Below are positions 1,931-29,073 of a stretch of DNA of 29,073 nt, one piece after another. This DNA comes from a virus. Position 1 is the first letter of the stretch; each line of letters opens with the position of its first letter. The notes under the pieces are model-generated. The model made no database searches. It had not been told where the DNA came from and worked only from the letters and a program-made list of their open reading frames with translations. The translations under genes and the position numbers were made by a program. Where the stretch lies: positions 1 through 29,073 of IMG/VR virus record IMGVR_UViG_3300027746_000077. One strand, 5' to 3'.

Positions 1931-3672
1931 CGTGAGTAATTTACTGTTACAGAATGCAGTATACCTGATTGATTAATACCTATACATAGGTAAGGAAATC
2001 CTAAAGGGTTATTAAGTGTAGCTACTGTGCTAAAGGTGCGAAGTGATAAGTCATTACTATTATCAAACGGATCTAATGCCATTAAAACATAGCTTGCTAC
2101 TGCGTTCCTCGTTAAAATAAATGTTTTTTCAACACATATACTATCAAGACCTGCTGCGAAATTTACTGGTGTTATATCAAAAAAGCCCATAGCAAGAGCA
2201 CCACTCAAACTTACTGAAGAAGGTGATGCGTAAAATCTAAATCTTGTATTAGACGTACCTTGTGTAGCTTGAAATATAGCACTAGCTTTCATTATATTAC
2301 CCGTAGTACTACTAGCTGTTTGAACTAATGGATAAGGACTACCAAATAAAAAAGTAATTCCAGTTCCTGCAGCTGCTTTATAAGTATTAATAATGGTAGG
2401 AGCTTGATAAACCTCAACTCCACTACGACCTCCTACTACTATATCTCCACTACCAAGCAACGAAGTTGAGTTAATAGTTTTTATATTAGTACCACTTACG
2501 AGTGTAGGTTGAACTGCTACATCCCCGCTACCTAAAAGAGTCGTGCTATTAACTGTCTTAATATTTGTGCCGCTTACAAGAGCTGCCTGCTTATTGTTGA
2601 AAGTGTTAAAGTTAGTTGAAGTCAAATAACCATTAACTGATGTTGTAGCAGCAGCCATACTGATAGCAGGTGTTGCTCCACCTGATGATACAACAGGAGC
2701 AGTTCCTGTTACTGATGTTACACCGCCTGCTACTACTAAATCACCACTACCTAAAACGGAAGATCCGTTGATAGTCTTAATGTTTGTTCCGCTAACAAGT
2801 TCAGCCTGCTTGCCGTTGAACGTAGTCCAATCAGTAGAACTCAAAGCACCTCTATTAGCTGCTGAAGCAGTTGGTAGGTTGAAGGTGTGTGTGCTTGTCG
2901 CAGACGAGATACCGAAGTCTGTTCCTGTTGTTCCCGTTGCGAAGTTCTGTACCTGTGCCGTTAAGCCATTTAACGCAGTCAATCCCGTTGAGAATGTAGT
3001 TATTACTTGACCAAGATGACTGTTCTCAGTATGGAGTTTAATCGTCCTTCCTGAGTTGTTGACGTAGATTCTAACCGCTAATCTATCGGTTAAAGCTAAC
3101 GTCGTTTGTGGTACTGCTATCGCGCTAACGTAAAGGTCAGTTACTGTTCCGTTCGTTATACCTTCAGGAGTAGCCGAGTTAGACGCTATTAAAGACAATG
3201 TCGTTCCGTTCCATTTATACAACTCGATATAAAATGAAGGAGTGCCACCTGAACTTGATGCGCTGAAGTACGTTTCAAAGTTCCAATTTCCTGCTGGTAT
3301 CTCTAACAAGTTTGGAACATTAGCGTCTGTGATGAAAGATTGAATGTAGCCATTCGTTGCAATCGTGAAATCTGTTCCTCCACCTATGATTGGTGTTCTG
3401 TCCATTTCTCTAAAAGCAACACCGCCAAATGTACCTTGTGATACCGAACCATTCAAATAGAATGACAATGATCCACCGCCACCCGTTGACGCAGGAAAGT
3501 TGGCAAGGCTTCCATCACCTCTCACATATTGCGATACTGTTCCTGTTGGATCGTCAAATTTAGCGTCTAATGCGTTTTGCAAGTCGGTCTGACTGGATAG
3601 CGTTCCTGTAATTGAACCCCACGTTATCGAAGCAGCAGCAGGTGTTGCCTTGATATATAAATTGTTTATCAT
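1927..3672 (-). CDS. Tail fibre / receptor-binding-type structural protein with internal repeats
   Basis: The protein has 581 residues and is rich in Ser, Thr, Gly and Asn. Residues 21-60 contain 'LQNALDAKFDDPTGTVSQYV', a fibre-shaft pattern common in Bacteroidetes phages. A Gly-rich linker (64-68) leads to a beta-rich region (70-230). Residues 276-413 hold repeats with 'LSSTDWTTFNGKQ' and three copies of 'LVSGTNIKTxNxxxLLGSGD'. The C-terminal 170 residues are non-repetitive and could be the receptor-binding head. It starts inside the end of the 342-residue tail gene (TGA/ATG overlap). Receptor binding is inferred; no enzymatic motif is visible. Confidence 0.75.
   Translation of the reverse strand: MINNLYIKATPAAASITWGSITGTLSSQTDLQNALDAKFDDPTGTVSQYVRGDGSLANFPASTGGGGSLSFYLNGSVSQGTFGGVAFREMDRTPIIGGGTDFTIATNGYIQSFITDANVPNLLEIPAGNWNFETYFSASSSGGTPSFYIELYKWNGTTLSLIASNSATPEGITNGTVTDLYVSAIAVPQTTLALTDRLAVRIYVNNSGRTIKLHTENSHLGQVITTFSTGLTALNGLTAQVQNFATGTTGTDFGISSATSTHTFNLPTASAANRGALSSTDWTTFNGKQAELVSGTNIKTINGSSVLGSGDLVVAGGVTSVTGTAPVVSSGGATPAISMAAATTSVNGYLTSTNFNTFNNKQAALVSGTNIKTVNSTTLLGSGDVAVQPTLVSGTNIKTINSTSLLGSGDIVVGGRSGVEVYQAPTIINTYKAAAGTGITFLFGSPYPLVQTASSTTGNIMKASAIFQATQGTSNTRFRFYASPSSVSLSGALAMGFFDITPVNFAAGLDSICVEKTFILTRNAVASYVLMALDPFDNSNDLSLRTFSTVATLNNPLGFPYLCIGINQSGILHSVTVNYSR
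2434..2847 (-). repeat. Amino-acid repeats in the fibre gene
   Basis: This region encodes residues 276-413 of the fibre. Two units of about 38 residues pair a 'YL/LS-ST-x-(W/F)-x-TFNxKQ' helix with 'LVSGTNIKT(I/V)N...LGSGD'. A third partial unit carries only the second half. The unit boundaries are conserved at protein level and only partly at DNA level, so the duplication is old. Confidence 0.8.
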
Positions 3673-4697
3673 AATTGTGTAATGTTTAAGTTTACTACTG
3701 ATGCGATTGACGATGTTATTAGAAGATCGTCACCTAAGGCAATCGAAGTTCCAAAAGTATAAGCACTTCCGTTCTTGGTTATTGTTATTGTCGGTGCGTT
3801 CTGTACGTTTGTTACGCTATCAATACTACACGAGTATGGCGCAATAAATATAGCTGATTGATAATCTAAGAAATCTACTGTCCACATAAATGTAAATGAA
3901 GGTTTGTTGTCTAAGTCGTCATAATCGTTTGAGAAACCAACCGCGCTAATGCTTGTAATGTCAGCCTTCAAAAGTATTTCTTCTTCTAATGCGTCAATGG
4001 CTGCTTCGATGTCGATTATCGTTTGACAATCTCCAATAGTTTCGCATGTCAAACCGATGTTGTCAGTAGTCAAATACCAACCGCGTACCCCTGCTCCGTT
4101 CGTTCCATAGTAATAGTTCGGTAAAGGTGCTGCTTCGTCGTTGACAAGACTAACGTTTCCGTTCTCGTCGCGTGTAATACTATCAATGAAGGTCAAGATT
4201 GAACTTGGTCCACCGCTTCCACTTTCAAAAAAGTCGTTCCACTCCGCAGGTATGCTGCACGCGTCCCAATAGTAAGGGACAAGTAAATCTAAACTAATTG
4301 TCCAACCTGTCAGCGTATGTTGAAATTCTTCAAGGAATGGTTCAAGACTTACATTCTGCACGGTAATCAAATCACCAAACAATACACGGTGGTTTGTAAT
4401 CTCAGCAACTAAGTCTTCTGCAATTCGTTGAAGGTCGGAAAGAACTTCGCGCTGGTACTCAGGTTTATCTTCTTTGTCGCGTGGAAGGTCAGCAAGGACA
4501 ATCTGAAAACTAAACGTCTTCATACCTTTCGCGTAAGTAACGTTTGAAGGTACAACGTGCATGAATGGATATTCACCAAACTTCTCTAAGTCAGATACTT
4601 CAATCTGTCCGTGAGAGAATCTTTTAAGAATAAAGTGTCCAGACGCAAATGCGTGGAATCTATCTATGAGCGCGTTGTAGCTTTGTACGTTCGACAT
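3669..4697 (-). CDS. Tail protein with C-terminal module shared with the large tail protein
   Basis: The first 145 residues form a compact domain ('FHAFASGHFILKRFSHGQIEVSDLEKF' region, then 'GWTISLDLLVPYYWD') of a type I associate with Bacteroidetes phage tail proteins; the exact role is unknown. A linker (150-265) contains a short helix 'IEAAIDALEEEILLK' (230-244). Residues 268-342 align without gaps to the last 75 residues of the protein at 26799-29073. The gene starts inside the frameshifted end of the chaperone gene (stop at 4660), which supports coupled translation. Its stop overlaps the fibre start. Position suggests a tail terminator, baseplate or fibre-adaptor role. Confidence 0.65.
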   Translation of the reverse strand: MSNVQSYNALIDRFHAFASGHFILKRFSHGQIEVSDLEKFGEYPFMHVVPSNVTYAKGMKTFSFQIVLADLPRDKEDKPEYQREVLSDLQRIAEDLVAEITNHRVLFGDLITVQNVSLEPFLEEFQHTLTGWTISLDLLVPYYWDACSIPAEWNDFFESGSGGPSSILTFIDSITRDENGNVSLVNDEAAPLPNYYYGTNGAGVRGWYLTTDNIGLTCETIGDCQTIIDIEAAIDALEEEILLKADITSISAVGFSNDYDDLDNKPSFTFMWTVDFLDYQSAIFIAPYSCSIDSVTNVQNAPTITITKNGSAYTFGTSIALGDDLLITSSIASVVNLNITQL

Positions 4698-5420
4698 AAT
4701 TGTAGTCTATTAGGTAAGTCATATATGTAAATATCTCCCAAGCACTTTTTTCCGTAATTGAATCTAATTTAGTTATGTCACGTCCACATGCTTCCATAAA
4801 AAGATGATACCAACCGTAGCGACCAAGCACTTGGTTTAGGTTGTCTCTGTCTTCAATTGCTCCGTCAGTTCCTGTGTCAACTTCTTCACCTCGTTCTCCA
4901 AATAGTCGAGCGAAGTGTTGCTTAGTTCGTTGAGCAAAGTCGAAAAAAAAAGCATCGCACCGTTGAATTGTTCGAGCGTCATCTGCTCAACGTAGCCTTC
5001 AACGAGTTCTCTATTTGCTTTGCCGTGTGGAACGATTGTGTACTTCGAACCCACGCGCTTGTCTATTGGTCTGTAAAGCGTTCCCATAATCTTGACCATG
5101 TTCTCTCCAACGTTAGCAGCCCACGTTGAAATGTCAGCGTACTCACCCATACTGATAGAGTATAGGTCAGGGATAAACCCGAAGTCCTTGTCTTTGATAG
5201 TTATCGTTTCAAAGAACTTTGCTGATTCATTTAACAACGTTCCTTCAAACGCTGCGAGTAATGTCGGCAAGTGTTGGAAGGGAATCTGTTCCGCCTGTTC
5301 TTTCAGTAGGTTACTGATGCTAACCAACTTGTCGATGTCGTTCTTCGCGCTGTGGTAGTCAACGTATTGCTTGACGCTTATGCTTGAATAGTCAGCTGGT
5401 ATTGATACTTTTATACTCAT
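4660..5420 (-). CDS. Tail assembly chaperone, -1 frameshift fusion product (gpGT-like)
   Basis: Residues 1-159 come from the frame starting at 5420. The ribosome then slips back one base on the T9 run (plus strand A9 at 4943-4951, slippery U UUU UUU) and reads 94 further codons to TAG at 4660-4662. The predicted fusion has 253 residues. The extension contains 'LNQVLGRYGWYHLFMEACGR', followed by 'DITKLDSITEKSAWEIFTYM', a helical protein-like sequence with a Trp-Tyr / Gly-Asp-Ile pattern familiar from Bacteroidetes phage tail genes. It fills the 138 bases that would otherwise be non-coding between 4698 and 4835. If the true run were 10 Ts, this would be one ordinary gene. Confidence 0.72.
4836..5420 (-). 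CDS. Tail assembly chaperone, unshifted product
   Basis: This 194-residue protein has a helical N-terminus ('KQYVDYHSAKNDIDKLVSIS'), then a beta-rich stretch including 'FIPDLYSISMGEYADISTW' and 'LYRPIDKRVGSKYTIVPHG', and ends in a Lys/Glu-rich helix. This layout matches Bacteroidetes phage proteins I regard as equivalents of lambda gpG tail chaperones. The codons at 4952-4944 read CTT TTT TTT. In the -1 frame the message stays open for 94 more codons, so this is the short form of a frameshifting pair. Family identity is inferred from the frameshift and the position upstream of tail genes. Confidence 0.7.
   Translation of the reverse strand: MSIKVSIPADYSSISVKQYVDYHSAKNDIDKLVSISNLLKEQAEQIPFQHLPTLLAAFEGTLLNESAKFFETITIKDKDFGFIPDLYSISMGEYADISTWAANVGENMVKIMGTLYRPIDKRVGSKYTIVPHGKANRELVEGYVEQMTLEQFNGAMLFFSTLLNELSNTSLDYLENEVKKLTQELTEQLKTETT
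4942..4952 (-). other. Programmed -1 frameshift slippery site (U9)
   Basis: The minus strand reads C TTT TTT TTT C with zero-frame codons CTT TTT TTT TCG. Both P- and A-site tRNAs can re-pair perfectly after a one-base slip, which gives TTC GAC as the next codons. I did not identify a clear downstream pseudoknot by eye. Confidence 0.7.
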
Positions 5421-6403: not shown

Positions 6404-6640
6404 CTACCCCAATTTACTTTTGTAATGGTTAATAAGTTGTTCCATTCTGCTATCATAGTATTTCGAGAACGTCTTGAAGCCGTCGTTGTCTTGTTCGAAT
6501 AGTCTGAATAGAACACCTCTCAATCTTTGTGAGGGCTTCTTTAACGTATCTTCAAGTTCACTCTTTAATGATTCTACTGCGTCTAATTCTTCGCGTTTAA
6601 AGTCCTGTGATAGCTTGAATCTGACTAACAGTATCTTCAC
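6404..6640 (-). pseudogene. Truncated duplicate of the gene at 7358-7711
   Basis: From 'DFKREELDAVESLKSELEDT' to the C-terminus this frame matches residues 50-117 of the 117-residue protein at 7358-7711 closely (REELDAVESLKSELEDTLKK identical). The first 12 residues, from a GTG at 6640, are unrelated and overlap the end of the 38-residue frame at 6597-6713. The N-terminal half of the parent gene is therefore missing. It may be a remnant, or still be expressed from the GTG as a C-terminal-domain protein; the intact frame and conservative substitutions allow the latter. Confidence 0.55.
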
Positions 6641-6713
6641 CAGCAGCCATGAAGTCTACATAAGTTCCGAGCGTTTGGTCGCTGTACTTAGTGCTTATTA
6701 TTTTATCACTCAT
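6597..6713 (-). CDS. 38-aa protein resembling the N-terminus of the tail chaperone (fragment)
   Basis: It starts MSDKIISTKYSDQTLGTYVD and ends '..SQIQAITGL'. It follows the profile of the first 40 residues of the chaperone at 4836-5420 ('IPADYSSISVKQYVDYHSAK..IDKLVSISNLL'): YS, YVD and a spaced Ile/Leu pattern align without gaps. The ATG has a rare Shine-Dalgarno-like GGAGG 6 bases upstream and overlaps the stop of 6706-6957. It stops where similarity to the gene at 7358-7711 begins, so it looks like the truncated start of a lost chaperone-like gene. Confidence 0.4.
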   Translation of the reverse strand: MSDKIISTKYSDQTLGTYVDFMAAGEDTVSQIQAITGL

Positions 6714-6957
6714 CTTGACCTCCGTAAGTTTCGTTGTAGTATTGTTCTGCCTTTTCACTTTGACATGACGCAAACGGTTGACCTGCAATATGAGAATTTA
6801 ATAACTGATCTTTCTCTATTTGCTTGGCTTGGTTATAAAATTCATCTAACATTCCTTGAGTTATTCTAATATCACCAAGACCTAAATGGTAATTATGATT
6901 GTGAGCAAGTTGTCTTAATTCTTCCATAAACCATTCAACCGCAGTTTGTTTACTCAT
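6706..6957 (-). CDS. Small phage protein, paralogue of 13043-13300
   Basis: The 83-residue protein begins 'MSKQTAVEWFMEELRQLAHN', has a central 'FYNQAKQIEKDQ' and ends 'YYNETYGGQDE'. The same three blocks occur in the 85-residue protein at 13043-13300, on the other strand and in the early unit. This Q-T-A-x-(E/D)-W ... QAK-x-(M/I)-EK ... YNETYG layout is common in small proteins of Flavobacterium-type phages; no function is known to me. Its start overlaps the stop of the terminase small subunit. Confidence 0.7.
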   Translation of the reverse strand: MSKQTAVEWFMEELRQLAHNHNYHLGLGDIRITQGMLDEFYNQAKQIEKDQLLNSHIAGQPFASCQSEKAEQYYNETYGGQDE

Positions 6958-7361
6958 ATGTTTGTACCATCAATAGTTATGTTAATGCTCTTTATCTCAG
7001 TGCTCAGCTCTTGCCTTTCGATATACCCTCGTTGCTTGCCCTGAGTCTTAAGGTAGAATATCACTGCTGATGTGTTAGGTGCATCCTTAATCGTTACTAC
7101 CTCACCATCATGAGTTAATGCTTGGCGCTCTGCTCCCTCCATCAGCTTGCGTAACTGCTCCTCTGCAAAGTCTAAAGCTACATTCTTAAGTGAGTCTACT
7201 GCTGCCTTGTATTCAGAATCATCATTCATCCAATCGTAATGAGTCTGCCTATGTATTCCAATATCCTCAGCTGACTTAGTTACGTTGCCTAAGTTCTTTG
7301 TAAGTGCCTCATACATAGCAGCTTTTTTTATGGTAAGACTTTGTAAGTTCTCCTCACTCAT
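6954..7361 (-). CDS. terS: Terminase small subunit
   Basis: The protein has 135 residues. Residues 10-55 form a helix-turn-helix DNA-binding region ('KAAMYEALTKNLGNVTKSAE', then 'IGIHRQTHYDWMNDD'). 'ALDFAEEQLRKLMEG' is an oligomerisation-type helix, and the late block 'AVIFYLKTQGKQRGYIERQE' (98-117) is characteristic of Bacteroidetes-phage terminase small subunits. It would recognise the packaging site and recruit the large subunit encoded at 14748-16058 on the other strand. It overlaps both neighbours by 4 bases. The separation from terL is unusual. Confidence 0.8.
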   Translation of the reverse strand: MSEENLQSLTIKKAAMYEALTKNLGNVTKSAEDIGIHRQTHYDWMNDDSEYKAAVDSLKNVALDFAEEQLRKLMEGAERQALTHDGEVVTIKDAPNTSAVIFYLKTQGKQRGYIERQELSTEIKSINITIDGTNI

Positions 7362-7711
7362 GCTAACTTATTCTTGAAATGTGTTATTAACTGCTCCATC
7401 TTACTATCATAGTATTTAGCAAATGTAGTAAATCCTTCGTTATCAGCCTCATAAACTCTAAACATTATACCTCTTAATCTTTGTGATGGCTTCTTAAGTG
7501 TATCTTCTAACTCTGATTTAAGTGACTCAACAGCATCTAACTCTTCTCTTCTGAAGCTCTCATCTTTAAAAGCAAGATATCCGAACTGATTAGCTATTGT
7601 AAATAGTTCACTTGCTTGATTAGGTGTAAGTTCATTTGTTCCAAACGTCAGTTTAAGTGTTTTGTCCTTTCTTGTTGTTACTGCTTCTAATTGTGCTGGT
7701 ATGATAATCAT
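7358..7711 (-). CDS. Hypothetical protein, parent of the fragment at 6404-6640
   Basis: This 117-residue protein is the first gene after the non-coding gap and overlaps the terminase small subunit start by 4 bases. The N-terminal half ('KTLKLTFGTNELTPNQASEL') looks like a beta-sheet plus helix. The C-terminal half contains 'KKPSQRLRGIMFRVYEADNE' and ends in a basic helix 'DSKMEQLITHFKNKLA'. A similar C-terminal pattern occurs in small Bacteroidetes phage proteins; the function is unknown. A role with the terminase is suggested only by adjacency. Confidence 0.65.
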   Translation of the reverse strand: MIIIPAQLEAVTTRKDKTLKLTFGTNELTPNQASELFTIANQFGYLAFKDESFRREELDAVESLKSELEDTLKKPSQRLRGIMFRVYEADNEGFTTFAKYYDSKMEQLITHFKNKLA

Positions 7712-13042: not shown

Positions 13043-13300
13043 ATGGAAAAGAAACAAACTGCATTAGATTGGTATATTGAACAAAATTTTAATAACATAG
13101 TTCAGCGTGAAACACAACAAATATCACAAAATGAATATGTTATAGCTTATAATAATTTACTTAACCAAGCCAAGCAAATGGAGAAGGAGCAGATGAAAGA
13201 AGCTGCTTTAGATAATGTTACGACCAATGAAAAATTAAGAAAAATATTTGAAATTCAATTTGAAGATTTTTACAACGAAACTTACGGAGGAACAAAATGA
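13043..13300 (+). CDS. Small phage protein, paralogue of 6706-6957
   Basis: The 85-residue protein reads 'MEKKQTALDWYIEQNFNNIV', then 'LLNQAKQMEKEQMKEAA' and a final 'FYNETYGGTK'. It shares the same three blocks with the leftward protein at 6706-6957. The last codons contain GGAGG, positioned 6-7 bases before the next ATG, an unusual Shine-Dalgarno-like site for this phage. The gene is visibly A/T-rich compared with the genes after 13300. Function unknown. Confidence 0.7.
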   Translation: MEKKQTALDWYIEQNFNNIVQRETQQISQNEYVIAYNNLLNQAKQMEKEQMKEAALDNVTTNEKLRKIFEIQFEDFYNETYGGTK

Positions 13301-14407: not shown

Positions 14408-14751
14408 GCCAGTTCACATTTAACGAACAAGGTGTTTGCGAGAATCCTATTTTGAAAACTTACAAATGTATTAAGGGTTATGAAGCGCAGGTCAACACCG
14501 CTATTGTTCAGAACGGAAATTGGAGTTATTCAATTAGGTTTCAAAGCAAGGATCAAGGTTGGTCGCAGCCTTTACTTTACCACGCTAAACATTGCGTTTA
14601 CGAAACGAAAAGCGAAGCGTTCAATGCTGGTCTTGAATTGCTTCTGCATCAAGTAAAGCAAAACAACGACGCGAAGAAATATGATAGCATTGTTGAAATA
14701 CTTCAAGACGAACTTTGTCCTGTGGTTGAAAATCAATTATCTCTATTTTGA
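14404..14751 (+). CDS. Conserved phage hypothetical protein (115 aa)
   Basis: It has an N-terminal beta-rich portion ('YEAQVNTAIVQNGNWSYSIR', 'FQSKDQGWSQPLLY') and a helical C-terminus ending 'PVVENQLSLF'. It overlaps the preceding gene by ATGA. Its TGA overlaps the TTG start of terL, so it sets the translation of the terminase. The terminal 'QLSLF' resembles the QLxLF consensus for binding the beta sliding clamp; this is suggestive only. Function otherwise unknown. Confidence 0.6.
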   Translation: MSQFTFNEQGVCENPILKTYKCIKGYEAQVNTAIVQNGNWSYSIRFQSKDQGWSQPLLYHAKHCVYETKSEAFNAGLELLLHQVKQNNDAKKYDSIVEILQDELCPVVENQLSLF

Positions 14752-16058
14752 CACCTTACAAACCAAACTACCTACCGCGTCAAGTTGAAGCGTTGAACTA
14801 CCTTAACACAGATAGCATCGTTGAACAATTGTTATACGGTGGCGCGGCAGGGGGTGGCAAGACGAAGTTTGGTTGTATGTGGCAGATACAACGCCGTTTG
14901 AAGTACGCAGGGACACGTTCGCTTATTGGACGTAGCAAATTAGATACGCTTAAAAAGACGACCTTAAACACGTTCTTTGAAACTGCTGAGGAATTTGGAT
15001 TGATAGCAAACAAACACTACACCTTCAACGGACAATCCAACGTGATTAAGTTCTTTAATGGAAGCGAAATTGTTTTGAAAGACTTGTTCGCTTACCCTTC
15101 GGACGTTAACTTCAACAGTCTTGGTTCGTTAGAAATTACAGACTACTTTATTGACGAATGTTCCGAAGTAACCGAAAAGGCGGTGAGCATTGTTCACTCC
15201 AGATGTCGTTTTAAGTTGAATGAATACAATCTTATTCCGAAAGGTTTTTTGTCCTGCAATCCGTCGAAGGGTTGGTTGTATAACGAGTTCTATATTAAGA
15301 ACAACAGAAACGAATTGCCTTCACACCGCGCGTTTGTGCAAGCGTTACCGCAAGACAATCCGTTCTTACCTGTGGCTTACATTGAATCTCTTAGACGACT
15401 TCCTGAGTATGACCGCAAACGTCTGCTCGAAGGCAACTGGGAGTTCGACGACGACAGCGACAAGTTGTTTCAAACGGAGAACTTACTGAGAATGTTCCGC
15501 AACGAAGTAATCAATGAAGGCAAGAAGTACATAACAGCCGATATTGCGCGTTTCGGGAAGGATAGAACGATTATCTGCGTTTGGGAAGGGCTAACTATCA
15601 TCGATATAATTGAACTTAATAGAGCAGCATTGGACGAAGTCGTTAACCGCATACGCGTCGTAACAAATACACATAACATTTTGTTACAAGATGTCGTCTG
15701 CGACGAGGACGGTGTTGGCGGTGGAGTGGTTGATTTTCTTAAATGTCGAGGGTTTGTCAACGGATCTAAACCGAAGCACCCACAATATCAAAACTTAAAG
15801 AGCGAATGTTACTACAAACTTGCTCAGTACGTTGAAGAAAACAAGGTAACGATTTTATCCAGTACGCGCAAAGAACAAATCATTCGCGAACTTGAAATGA
15901 TTAAACGACACCGCGCAGACGTGGACGGTAAACTTATGGTAACTCCGAAGGACGTTATTAAGAACCGCGAAGGTATTTCGCCTGACGTTGCAGACGCTAT
16001 AATGATGCGAATGTACTTCGAACTCAATCCAAGTTATGGACAATATGTTGTCGGATAA
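14748..16058 (+). CDS. terL: Terminase large subunit
   Basis: The protein has 436 residues. The N-terminal ATPase has Walker A 'YGGAAGGGKT' (30-39) and Walker B 'DYFIDECSE' with D136-E137. The C-terminal RNase H-like nuclease has D265 in 'ITADIARFGKD', D321 in 'VVCDEDGVGGG' and D416 in 'SPDVADAIMM'. It cuts concatemers and pumps DNA into proheads through the portal (19641-21326). Translation must start at TTG 14748, because the first in-frame ATG lies after Walker A. The TTGA overlap couples it to the preceding gene. Its terS partner is encoded at 6954-7361 on the other strand. Confidence 0.92.
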   Translation: MTPYKPNYLPRQVEALNYLNTDSIVEQLLYGGAAGGGKTKFGCMWQIQRRLKYAGTRSLIGRSKLDTLKKTTLNTFFETAEEFGLIANKHYTFNGQSNVIKFFNGSEIVLKDLFAYPSDVNFNSLGSLEITDYFIDECSEVTEKAVSIVHSRCRFKLNEYNLIPKGFLSCNPSKGWLYNEFYIKNNRNELPSHRAFVQALPQDNPFLPVAYIESLRRLPEYDRKRLLEGNWEFDDDSDKLFQTENLLRMFRNEVINEGKKYITADIARFGKDRTIICVWEGLTIIDIIELNRAALDEVVNRIRVVTNTHNILLQDVVCDEDGVGGGVVDFLKCRGFVNGSKPKHPQYQNLKSECYYKLAQYVEENKVTILSSTRKEQIIRELEMIKRHRADVDGKLMVTPKDVIKNREGISPDVADAIMMRMYFELNPSYGQYVVG

Positions 16059-19640: not shown

Positions 19641-21326
19641 TTAAGAGTATTTAAGTGAACCTCGTGTTGGTGTGTTAATTGGCGCAACACCTTCTGCGCC
19701 TTTTTGTGGTACGAAAGGGTTGTTACCTACGCGCTTATCGTTATTTAATCCGTCGTTAGGAAGTACACGACCTTTTGAATCTCTTTTACGAATGTAAATT
19801 TGACGCTTCCAAAAGTGATGACAAAACGCACCACCTTTCCAAATAAATATATTGTATGTTGAACTGCCTTCTGGTGCAAACTCTCCGTTTATTCCTGCGT
19901 CACTCATGTCCTGAATATCTTCAAAACGAAATGATAAACCCGATTGTGATAGGTCAACCATTTCTTGACAAAACTCACGACTATTTTCGCTTAAGTTTTG
20001 AGAGTAAGCGTAACGCAATTTATAAAGTCCTGTATCTCCAAAAGCAGACCTTTCGTCAGCGTTTGCGTAATTGCGAACACTCATGTAGTCTTGTCTGAAA
20101 TTAGCTTCGTTTTCGGGTTCTGTTACATCTTCTTCACTAAGCAACTCCCACTCGTCTAAATCGACTAATTCAGCTTTCTCTTTTAGCGCGTTAATCCAAA
20201 GGCGACCTTGTTCGTCTGAAAAGTCATTCTCAGCAGCAACTACTTTTTTTTTTAATTCAGCAGTTTGAACCGTTGGTTGAACAACAACTACTTCGTCGAA
20301 TACGCTGTTCATTGTGATAGTTAAATCACTTCCAAGAATAGGCGCGAATGTGTTTGTGATGATTCTTTGGTATGGCTTGATAACTTGGTTGTTGAATATC
20401 TCCATACCAACCAACATTTCATCTTTGTTACTTCCGAATCCTGTTGTATCTCTAATTCCGTGAATCAACGGCGACACAACACGGTGTCCTACCATGATTT
20501 GCTTCGCTGTTTCTTCTGATAAAAATTGATATTGCTTGTCTGCGTCACTAAGTGGAAACGATTCGATTTGTGGAGCGCGTGTAGGATCTTCGTTGAACGT
20601 CATTAAGAACTTTCCTGCGTTACTTGCACCGCTCAATCTTGTTTCCCACTCACGACGTATTGCCTCGCGTTCTTCTTTCTGCGGTATTCCGTTTAAGAAG
20701 TTAATAATGAACGAAGGAAATAAACCATTCAAGATATTGTTGACGTGGTATAGTCCCATTTGATAAGACAACTCAACGTAGTTTAACGCTCCGAAGTAAT
20801 CAGGCTTTGCGTAGTACGAACTTCCTGCCATCATTCCGTGAGCGTAGATAACTTGTCGCGGTTGTTCTTCCGCTTGTGAAGGATTGAATGCAGGAATGAA
20901 CTCAGGCTTTCCTTTTTTGCTGCGTGAGTTTGCCCAATCTTTTGAGTACCAAATGCCTGTGATGTCATCTTCTTCTTTGTCGTAAGCTAAACGACAATTC
21001 TCAAAAGGTAAGTGGTTGATTTTAACAACGCGTGTGAAGTCCATTGACCAAATCACTTCGGCAACAAATGCACCTTGTAACTTTAAGTCGAACGCAATAC
21101 CTTGCAAAGCGTTGTCAAGAATAGTTCCTGTACCTTGTCCTTCAATCATATACGCAATTGAGTTTGTCAATGCGTTGTGAATAGGACTGTTATAATAAAG
21201 CGTGATTAGGTGTTGTGGAAATAAGTTGTTGTAACCGTAGTCAATCCAACCTGCACGATTGTCTTTTTCAACCGCTTCAACTGGCTGATACATTGATAGG
21301 TTTATTGCTTGAATGTTATTTTCCAT
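19641..21326 (-). CDS. Portal protein
   Basis: From the ATG at 21326 (MENNIQAINLSMYQPVEAVE) the protein has 561 residues. This start is one base after the preceding stop; an upstream GTG is in frame but would overlap. Portal-type features include 'YNNLFPQHLITLYYNSPIHN', 'LPFENCRLAYDKEEDDITGI', 'YFGALNYVELSYQMGLYHVN' and the thumb-like 'HRVVSPLIHGIRD'. The length fits a portal core plus a C-terminal extension (400-561). The portal forms the dodecameric DNA entry vertex and docks the terminase. Confidence 0.8.
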   Translation of the reverse strand: MENNIQAINLSMYQPVEAVEKDNRAGWIDYGYNNLFPQHLITLYYNSPIHNALTNSIAYMIEGQGTGTILDNALQGIAFDLKLQGAFVAEVIWSMDFTRVVKINHLPFENCRLAYDKEEDDITGIWYSKDWANSRSKKGKPEFIPAFNPSQAEEQPRQVIYAHGMMAGSSYYAKPDYFGALNYVELSYQMGLYHVNNILNGLFPSFIINFLNGIPQKEEREAIRREWETRLSGASNAGKFLMTFNEDPTRAPQIESFPLSDADKQYQFLSEETAKQIMVGHRVVSPLIHGIRDTTGFGSNKDEMLVGMEIFNNQVIKPYQRIITNTFAPILGSDLTITMNSVFDEVVVVQPTVQTAELKKKVVAAENDFSDEQGRLWINALKEKAELVDLDEWELLSEEDVTEPENEANFRQDYMSVRNYANADERSAFGDTGLYKLRYAYSQNLSENSREFCQEMVDLSQSGLSFRFEDIQDMSDAGINGEFAPEGSSTYNIFIWKGGAFCHHFWKRQIYIRKRDSKGRVLPNDGLNNDKRVGNNPFVPQKGAEGVAPINTPTRGSLKYS

Positions 21327-26599: not shown

Positions 26600-26802
26600 T
26601 ATGAGAGTAGTTTATATAAAATAAATATCCAAATGGCTACGTTTACGGAAATGCGTGTCACTTTCCAAGCGTAGTGCTTCCACATTTCCAACTTACGTTT
26701 GCCGTTAGCAATACGTCCGAACTCGCTTTGACTTTTTATGTTCAACTTAATGAACTCTAAACAAGCGACCATAGCACCTGATTTATTTTCCATGTTTATC
26801 AT
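26599..26802 (-). CDS. Small membrane protein before the tape measure gene
   Basis: The 67-residue protein has a basic first half and one hydrophobic segment at the C-terminus ('NVAIWIFILYKLLS'). Its start overlaps the stop of the large tail protein (ATGA); a second ATG lies 9 bases on. It overlaps the tape measure start by one base. Its place is that of small chaperone/membrane proteins in tail operons; function unknown. Confidence 0.55.
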   Translation of the reverse strand: MINMENKSGAMVACLEFIKLNIKSQSEFGRIANGKRKLEMWKHYAWKVTRISVNVAIWIFILYKLLS

Positions 26803-29073
26803 GCTCGTTCTATTATTGCGTTAACAACAGATGCGGTGTTTGCGGTGAAAACAATAGCACTTCCAATACCTATGTTAGTGCCTAATGTGTAAGGACTGCC
26901 GTCGTCAGTAATTGTTATGACAGGACTATTCTTTACGTTGTCAATTTTGTTGATTATTAAGCTATAAGGTGCGAAAACGGTTACGCTTAAACTGCTCATG
27001 AAGTCAATAGTCCACGTTATTGTGTTGTCGTTTTCACTATCAATCTTCCAGTTGCTTCCGTCACTTACCAAAGTAATTACACTTCCAGTTGTTTTCATTA
27101 CATACGTCACCGCACTTTCAATCTTTTGACCTGTGTATGCGTAAAGCGTTGCGCCATAATCGTCACTTACTAACTTGATACTGATTATCGTGCCGCGTGT
27201 TGTTTGTGCGGACGGAAGGTAAACGTCAATATCTGCTGCTAAGTCAGTAAGTAAAATAGTTCTGTCAAAATTCGTTACGACATAGTCTGTGCTTACTGAC
27301 CTAACTGGTTGACTAATCGCACCGCTGAAGTTAACAGGCGCACCGAATCGTGTTGGTGCTAACGAAGGTACTTGTTGAGTGATGAAGGAACGTGTTCCGT
27401 TGTTTGGCTGTGAGAAACAATCGTTCTTTGCAGAGTTCCAGTTGTAGCCAAAACGAAGACAACAATCTTGCGTTACTACCGCAGGATCTCCGTTCGGTGT
27501 TTCCCAATTTAACGATTGGTCAAGGTTAGCCGATACAGGTACAATATCGCAATCGTTGTTGATGTCGAGAACGCGAATAAGTTTGACCTTCGTCATATCT
27601 TGCTCACCTACCACATAACCGCTAATTTCTAACACTCTCCACCAAGAATCTATTATCCAAATCTTGTCTGAAAATTGAAACGTAAATATGTCGTTAAGCG
27701 TTAAGGCAAACATACCCTCTAAGATGCGTGCTTGTCCGTCGAATAGTTCACGGTAATAGTTTCTCCAATAACGATTGTAAAGGTTGTTGTATGGATTAGC
27801 AACGATTGTGTGAATAGGTACTTCGGGAGCAAAGTTCAAGTCGCTATCTGACACCGTTGCGTTCATTGTCGAGTAGTTGTTTAGACACTTCACAGCCGTT
27901 TGAATTACGTCACCGCTTACCTCATCGTACATATTTACAAAGAAGTCAGCAAAGTAGTAAAGTATGCGCGGTTTCGGTTGTACGAATTGACCTTCTGCGT
28001 TGGTGAAAACAGGAACAACTACGTCCGTGTTTTGTACAGGTGCAGAAGGTGTAGACGCGAATGACAATTCAACCTTTTCTTCGCCAGTTGCGAACTCGTT
28101 AATTACTTCAAAATCTGATTCCGTTACTTCATATCTTCCGTAGATGCGTCCATTGTCTTTGTAGACTGAATTATAATAGTCACCGTCTTCGGTGTATGTA
28201 AAACTAAACTTCGCCTTTTGCAAGTCGGTTGTTGGCGAGTACATGATGTCTTTTGACAAGTCAAGTTTCTGCGACCAATCGAGCGTGTTACCGCTTGCGA
28301 TATACTCAACCATTGGTTCTATTCGAAGCGTGTTTGGTAGCGTCTTGTCGGCAACGAAGACAAGGTTGAACATCTTTTGAATCGACGTCATGAAATCAAT
28401 TTGCTTCATATCTGGAGCGTTGAATTCCATTAAACAAGTATCTCCCGTCAATGATGTTCCAACGCTTACAAGTTCAACTCCTGTTCCTGTGTAATCATTT
28501 GCTCCGTTACCTACAAATTCAATATCAAATGTTGAAGTGTTATAAACTCCACTAACACCTTCGATTTTTATTTTCAAAGTATCTCCTGCGTTTAACAAAA
28601 GAGTGACTGTATTGTCTTTTAAAAAAGTGTGTGAATATAAATTTGAATTGTCTACAAAATTGCTAAATGTAGAATCTATAAATACATCGTTGACGTAATA
28701 GAAATAACTCAAAATTAAATCAGTTACATAGTTGCTTCCTGAAGAAGTTGCCGTTCCATTTGCCCAAATTCGAAAAGTAAATTGACCGCTAAAAGGCGCT
28801 GTATAAATTCCACCGCTCCAATCATTTTCAGCGTCTTCATATTCGGTTAATGGCAAGTATAGATTTTTAATGTTATTTGTTGGTGTAAATGTAAACGTTT
28901 GATTTGTTGCGTAAGCTAACGTACTCGCAACGTCATTTAAGCCCAAAGCACTATTCAAATACTGACCATTCACAAAAGGAACGTAAATATGGTCTAAGAT
29001 TGTTGAAAGATAATCACTTGTATATTGAATACCTGCATCGTTCATTATTTGATTAAACAAATAGTCAGCGCGT
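26799..29073 (-). CDS. Large tail (baseplate/host-contact) protein, 5' end missing
   Basis: The frame is open to the right edge (RADYLFNQIMNDAG at 29072 downward), so no start is visible; at least 757 residues. 'DYLFNQIMNDAG' and 'IYVPFVNGQYL' are known to me from the middle of roughly 1000-residue Bacteroidetes phage tail proteins, so about 200 residues may be missing. Residues equivalent to 27300-27700 include aromatic-rich 'YNRYWRNYYRELFDG'. The last 75 residues (26802-27026) match the C-terminus of the protein at 3669-4697. Likely at the tail tip; the role is inferred. Confidence 0.7.
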   Translation of the reverse strand, partial: RADYLFNQIMNDAGIQYTSDYLSTILDHIYVPFVNGQYLNSALGLNDVASTLAYATNQTFTFTPTNNIKNLYLPLTEYEDAENDWSGGIYTAPFSGQFTFRIWANGTATSSGSNYVTDLILSYFYYVNDVFIDSTFSNFVDNSNLYSHTFLKDNTVTLLLNAGDTLKIKIEGVSGVYNTSTFDIEFVGNGANDYTGTGVELVSVGTSLTGDTCLMEFNAPDMKQIDFMTSIQKMFNLVFVADKTLPNTLRIEPMVEYIASGNTLDWSQKLDLSKDIMYSPTTDLQKAKFSFTYTEDGDYYNSVYKDNGRIYGRYEVTESDFEVINEFATGEEKVELSFASTPSAPVQNTDVVVPVFTNAEGQFVQPKPRILYYFADFFVNMYDEVSGDVIQTAVKCLNNYSTMNATVSDSDLNFAPEVPIHTIVANPYNNLYNRYWRNYYRELFDGQARILEGMFALTLNDIFTFQFSDKIWIIDSWWRVLEISGYVVGEQDMTKVKLIRVLDINNDCDIVPVSANLDQSLNWETPNGDPAVVTQDCCLRFGYNWNSAKNDCFSQPNNGTRSFITQQVPSLAPTRFGAPVNFSGAISQPVRSVSTDYVVTNFDRTILLTDLAADIDVYLPSAQTTRGTIISIKLVSDDYGATLYAYTGQKIESAVTYVMKTTGSVITLVSDGSNWKIDSENDNTITWTIDFMSSLSVTVFAPYSLIINKIDNVKNSPVITITDDGSPYTLGTNIGIGSAIVFTANTASVVNAIIERA

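Follow-up and report, generated by a model that had tools for sequence, protein, structure and literature searches.

The window, the whole stretch of DNA analysed, is a 29,073-bp IMG/VR virus record. The gene under study, the slip gene, is located on its minus strand. The zero-frame ORF (4836–5420, minus strand) begins with ATG at 5420, stops at 4836 and encodes a product of 194 aa, a putative chaperone-like N-terminal product and gpG analogue, member of phrog_32199 (unknown function). The slip run consists of nine T's at 4951–4943 (minus strand; U9 in the mRNA) and is read in the zero frame as CTT TTT TTT TCG (4952–4941). The −1 frame continues through the run uninterrupted and terminates at TAG (4662–4660). 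The extension (4660–4944, minus strand) comprises 94 codons and a stop; it is a putative T-domain analogue and belongs to phrog_38404 in relatives. Joined at the run, the two frames give a 253-aa fusion, the last 94 residues of which are derived from the −1 frame. Positions 4836–4942 (minus strand), 3' of the run, are dual-coding. The run is enclosed in a 19-nt block, TGCTTTTTTTTTCGACTTT (4936–4954, minus strand), unchanged in 83 close relatives; no other stretch of the gene that is strictly invariant in these 83 sequences exceeds 8 nt.

The next gene (3669–4697, minus strand; phrog_30964) begins at 4697, so that the gap is filled by the extension, the end of which overlaps the next gene by 38 nt (4660–4697, minus strand). 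The N-terminal part of its product is related to that of the slip-gene follower in 345 of 345 testable relatives. By size and gene order it is putatively tail terminator-like. The first-pass annotation had placed the zero-frame stop, the slip site and the end of the −1 frame at these positions, and had described the extension as filling the gap and ending within the start of the next gene; coordinates and frames are all correct.

Three further similarities in the window were recognized by eye. The predicted structural proteins encoded at 3669–4697 and 26799–29072 (both minus strand) resemble each other over their last 75 or so residues (WTVDFLDYQSAIFIAPYSCSIDSVTNVQNAPTITITKNGSAYTFGTSIALGDDLL, WTIDFMSSLSVTVFAPYSLIINKIDNVKNSPVITITDDGSPYTLGTNIGIGSAIVF), which would fit a common C-terminal domain. 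Two very similar coding segments (REELDAVESLKSELEDTLKKPSQRLRG) are present at 7358–7711 and at about 6404–6600 (both minus strand), which suggests that a segment was duplicated recently and that one copy was truncated. Small proteins encoded on opposite strands, at 6706–6957 (minus) and 13043–13300 (plus), have a similar start and the common ending YNETYGG; they are possible paralogues. The portal gene carries another slippage-prone site, a run of ten A's on its coding strand (20244–20253); the other two frames soon close there, so a recoding product is not evident.

The two frames among relatives

Relatives were retrieved by tblastn with each half separately. In the close relatives the site is C-T9-C, in the same phase and with the extension at −1, in all 84 distinct sequences. 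One of them, L135, has an intact run and an extension that stops early, and is either a sequencing error or a defective copy. Walking outward through IMG/VR gave a wider family of 376 distinct loci with both halves, Nonlabens phages P12024L and P12024S included. The halves occupy separate frames, offset by −1, in 376 of 376 loci, and no single-frame fused version is present among them. The programmed −1 recoding to a gpG/gpGT-like pair claimed in the first-pass annotation is strongly supported. Loss of the −1 frame in related genomes, which would have counted against recoding, is not what the comparison gives: both frames are kept throughout, and the T run in all 84 close relatives. No other run of more than six T's occurs in the same genes (230 genes).

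The family searches used peptide patterns, several of which (GWYH, GFIP, HKAMAV, GEYVD) lie away from the slip; such searching may in principle be biased toward the FF motif at the slip. Relatives are almost wholly metagenome contigs. Host range is inferred from the single isolated pair, on Nonlabens. No homologue was found in GTDB bacterial genome contigs, and hence no host or prophage link is available from that source. P12024L and P12024S are the only isolated-phage relatives found and also the only annotated ones. Their site, ATA CTT TTT TTT TAT (C-T9-A), is identical to that of the window gene in run and phase. The homologous pair (genes 40/41 of P12024L, 38/39 of P12024S; 26–29% identity) likewise has a −1 extension, carrying GWYHxF. 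Unlike here, the record annotates two hypothetical proteins and does not mention recoding.

The extension-only coding part has a pN/pS of 0.021 in the −1 frame (83 sequences). Substitutions sit at the third base of that frame; reading in the zero phase gives 3.1. By this substitution pattern the extension is a real protein under strong purifying selection, and the protein-like character first ascribed to the −1 sequence is confirmed both by the ratio and by homologues.

RNA polymerase or ribosome at the run

Slippage of the ribosome or of RNA polymerase leads to the same 253-aa protein, and constraints that discriminate between the two were therefore sought. To judge by the sequences compared, RNA-polymerase slippage at U9 is probably the main route to the two products. 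The majority mRNA would be U9 and would give the 194-aa product. On the nine A's of the template RNA polymerase would slip, producing a minority mRNA with an extra U (U10), ordinary translation of which would give the 253-aa product. Two proteins would be made in a set ratio from one gene. Small amounts of U8 and U11 mRNA would be expected as well, with products ending in RLCSTN. In a related clade U9 would be replaced by a ribosomal signal (A_AAU_UUU with a long-range stem), the fusion remaining unchanged.

A hallmark of transcriptional slippage, an uninterrupted run of about nine T's of conserved length at the frame junction, is found in 361 of 361 U-run loci and in three phases. The run is T9 in 341 loci and T10 in 20; runs of 7, 8 or 11 T's are absent from all 361. 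Ribosomal tandem slippage requires just seven, T_TTT_TTT or T_TTT_TTC. The codon phase of the run is 1 in 347 loci, 0 in nine (four clusters at 60% identity) and 2 in five (three clusters). T losses at one edge of the run accompany gains at the opposite edge, as in the shifted runs GGT TTT TTT TTG (L174), AAT TTT TTT TTT CAT (L266), AGT TTT TTT TTT CGT (L480) and TTT TTT TTT CTG (L481). A T-to-C change in the third position of the second TTT codon would alter no residue in either frame and would produce UUUUUUC. It is observed in none of 252 T9 loci (55 clusters at 60% identity), while TTC makes up 28% of Phe codons in those genes; the chance of this is about 2e-8 with clusters taken as independent, a figure to be read only loosely, since the clusters share ancestry. 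RNA structure is not found up- or downstream of U9 in 52 representatives, nor downstream of the run in 132 loci (mean z about +0.2). The by-eye failure of the first-pass annotation to find a stimulatory pseudoknot is thus borne out. An upstream hairpin able to aid polymerase slippage was also sought around U9 and not found.

Nine A's or T's are a length that gives efficient slippage of bacterial RNA polymerase, and both Thermus dnaX and Shigella mxiE exploit slippage on A or U runs (PMC5009743, PMC1088944). A literature search of incomplete coverage returned no report of transcriptional slippage in a tail chaperone.

Ribosomal −1 frameshifting, in which the P- and A-site tRNA-Phe slip back on U_UUU_UUU within U9, is possible, if somewhat unlikely. 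All U9 and U10 loci contain the heptamer in phase; the two machines could therefore both slip there, and the main product would be identical. The literature describes the known frameshifts of tail chaperone genes as ribosomal (PMC5009743), and UUUUUUC is the heptanucleotide reported for chaperone gene 17.5 of SPP1 (PMC6316719). A sister clade, that of L217, has A_AAU_UUU and a downstream stem, a standard ribosomal signal, demonstrating that the slip-gene family has access to the ribosomal route. Against the polymerase, two of the run's bases are additionally constrained by hydrophobic residues encoded in one or other frame, and lengthening of the run could increase ribosomal slippage as well. 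Ribosomal slippage nevertheless leaves unexplained the absence of 7- or 8-T runs, the missing doubly synonymous T to C change in the 252 loci and the lack of a stimulatory structure at U9 loci. In E. coli, moreover, U_UUU_UUU shifts less readily than A_AAA_AAG (PMC5009743). The tandem ribosomal slippage assumed at first is disfavoured by the conservation of run length, the absence of UUUUUUC and the absence of RNA structure, which together favour transcriptional slippage.

The T run is absent from 15 loci (L217, L251, L332–L344). At the same codons these read NNA AAT TTT ATW TAY, which contains the canonical −1 heptamer A_AAU_UUU. In a midpoint-rooted tree they group as one clade (support 0.945), nested among U9 loci. 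The first arm of a long-range stem starts 3–4 nt past the heptamer, with its partner about 80 nt later (UACCGUUUAGGAA with UUUCUAAACGGUG). The stem comprises 13 pairs (99.4% of cells paired). Over the 100 nt that follow the site, z is below −1.9 in 15 of 15 loci; the best-stem score is about 6 sd above shuffles, vs −0.1 in U9 loci. Covariation is modest, with two pairs altered in both arms (one of these goes from C-G to U-A in L341), since eleven pairs are invariant in this narrow clade. Stimulatory RNA structure, which commonly but not always accompanies a −1 ribosomal frameshifting signal, is present only in the A_AAU_UUU clade, the mean z of U9 loci being near 0. A stem with the heptamer and none with the U run is what one expects if the heptamer is ribosomal and the U run is not. 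As heptamer and stem occur in one nested clade, the family appears, from its sequences, to have changed mechanism once. The evidence leans slightly toward a widespread family of aquatic phage tail chaperones in which polymerase slippage at U9 or U10 sets the ratio and one lineage has switched, at the same codon, to ribosomal A_AAU_UUU with a 13-pair stem.

Three other explanations were weighed and set aside. Translation of the extension as a second protein from its own start, by coupling or re-initiation, would agree with GenBank, where the P12024L/S extension is given as a separate ORF from an internal ATG; it is highly improbable. The conserved FFLxFRxR block begins at the slip, 5' of any ATG. 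An ATG in the frame of the extension at or before the slip is found in just 2 of 356 loci, and 212 of 356 are devoid of ATG, GTG or TTG in that frame ahead of the GWY motif. The extension is, as far as its sequence tells, without a usable start codon of its own. Phase variation, in which changes in the length of the DNA run toggle the long form, has very little probability: T9 is prone to replication slippage, but the frame relation is constant in the 361 loci, T10 being offset by codon phase or flanking codons. Least probable of all is an indel from sequencing or assembly, or a broken gene, the true gene being one continuous frame; homopolymers invite sequencing errors, and the record is a virus contig from IMG/VR, yet this reading is, on the sequences compared, already refuted, the run and frame relation being identical in 376 distinct loci from many metagenomes and two separately sequenced isolates, with no fused version and with purifying selection on both frames.

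Putative function and known systems

The zero-frame product is modelled with pLDDT 90.7 as mainly helical, with few short strands and a long C-terminal helix. The extension is modelled as helical with lower confidence (79.2). The beta-rich chaperone proposed in the first-pass annotation is wrong in this respect. No match was found in PDB fold searches for the zero-frame ORF or the extension. Absence of a fold match says nothing certain. Pfam gives no credible match for the products of the slip gene. Both phrog_32199 (zero half) and phrog_38404 (relatives of the extension) are PHROGs without assigned function, and neighbours of the slip gene also fall in PHROGs of unknown function. The 'tail protein' phrog_166 is matched weakly by 9 of 55 zero-frame relatives; BFVD gives one weak 'tail assembly chaperone' match (E 0.22).

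A small terminator-like gene is directly downstream in 345 of 345 testable loci. A gp10-like gene, so named by inference from size and order, follows the slip gene and the terminator-like gene in 250 of 317 loci. The large terminase (TerL) gene is upstream of the slip gene in 205 of 303 loci, shortly upstream in many relatives. In the window TerL (14748–16058) is distant from the slip gene and encoded on the plus strand, which indicates that gene order has been rearranged in this lineage. Gp10 of Flavobacterium phage 6H (L346, 10040–10927, minus strand), a weak fold relative with T_TTT_TTC near its end, was read by hand and left out, because the −1 frame entered at the heptamer meets a stop codon immediately. 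Its product ends in RCFFYSTR at T_TTT_TTC; the 305 nt beyond the gene are unannotated, and a −1 frame is open farther along.

Architecture and synteny, rather than homology, make a tail assembly chaperone pair the likely and most parsimonious interpretation. The function claimed at first stays putative and is not supported as such, neither sequence nor PDB fold matching a known chaperone. By analogy with lambda gpG/gpGT, the short form would coat the tape measure protein and the long form would recruit the tail tube protein.

Lambda gpG/gpGT, HK97 and SPP1 17.5/17.5* are similar in having a small gene of the structural module with −1 recoding near its 3' end, giving a short product and a minor, C-terminally extended one. 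They differ in the slip sequence (GGGAAAG or UUUUUUC there, U9 or U10 here), in that the slip gene here precedes a terminator-like gene, in the lack of a sequence or PDB-fold match and, probably, in the use of polymerase slippage here. In dnaX equivalent products are obtained from a nine-nucleotide homopolymer by transcriptional slippage in Thermus thermophilus (PMC1088944) and from a heptamer with structure by ribosomal frameshifting in E. coli (PMC5009743). The dnaX run is of A's and recoding gives the shorter product, whereas that of the slip gene is of U's and gives the longer; in the slip gene, both routes would be found inside one phage gene family. In Shigella mxiE and spa13 an extra mRNA nucleotide joins two overlapping ORFs into a longer product, and the spa13 extension ends within the next gene, as here; those are non-phage genes of type III secretion, without homology to the slip gene.

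In the records examined, the 253-aa product and the extension within it (phrog_32199 with phrog_38404) are split and unnamed, so many annotations of aquatic phages would be corrected. Tail chaperone recoding is a textbook example of ribosomal frameshifting. Should polymerase slippage govern the ratio here, an equivalent pair of products would have evolved by means of a different machine, and a single family would supply natural pairs (U9 vs A_AAU_UUU with stem) for testing the use of each route.
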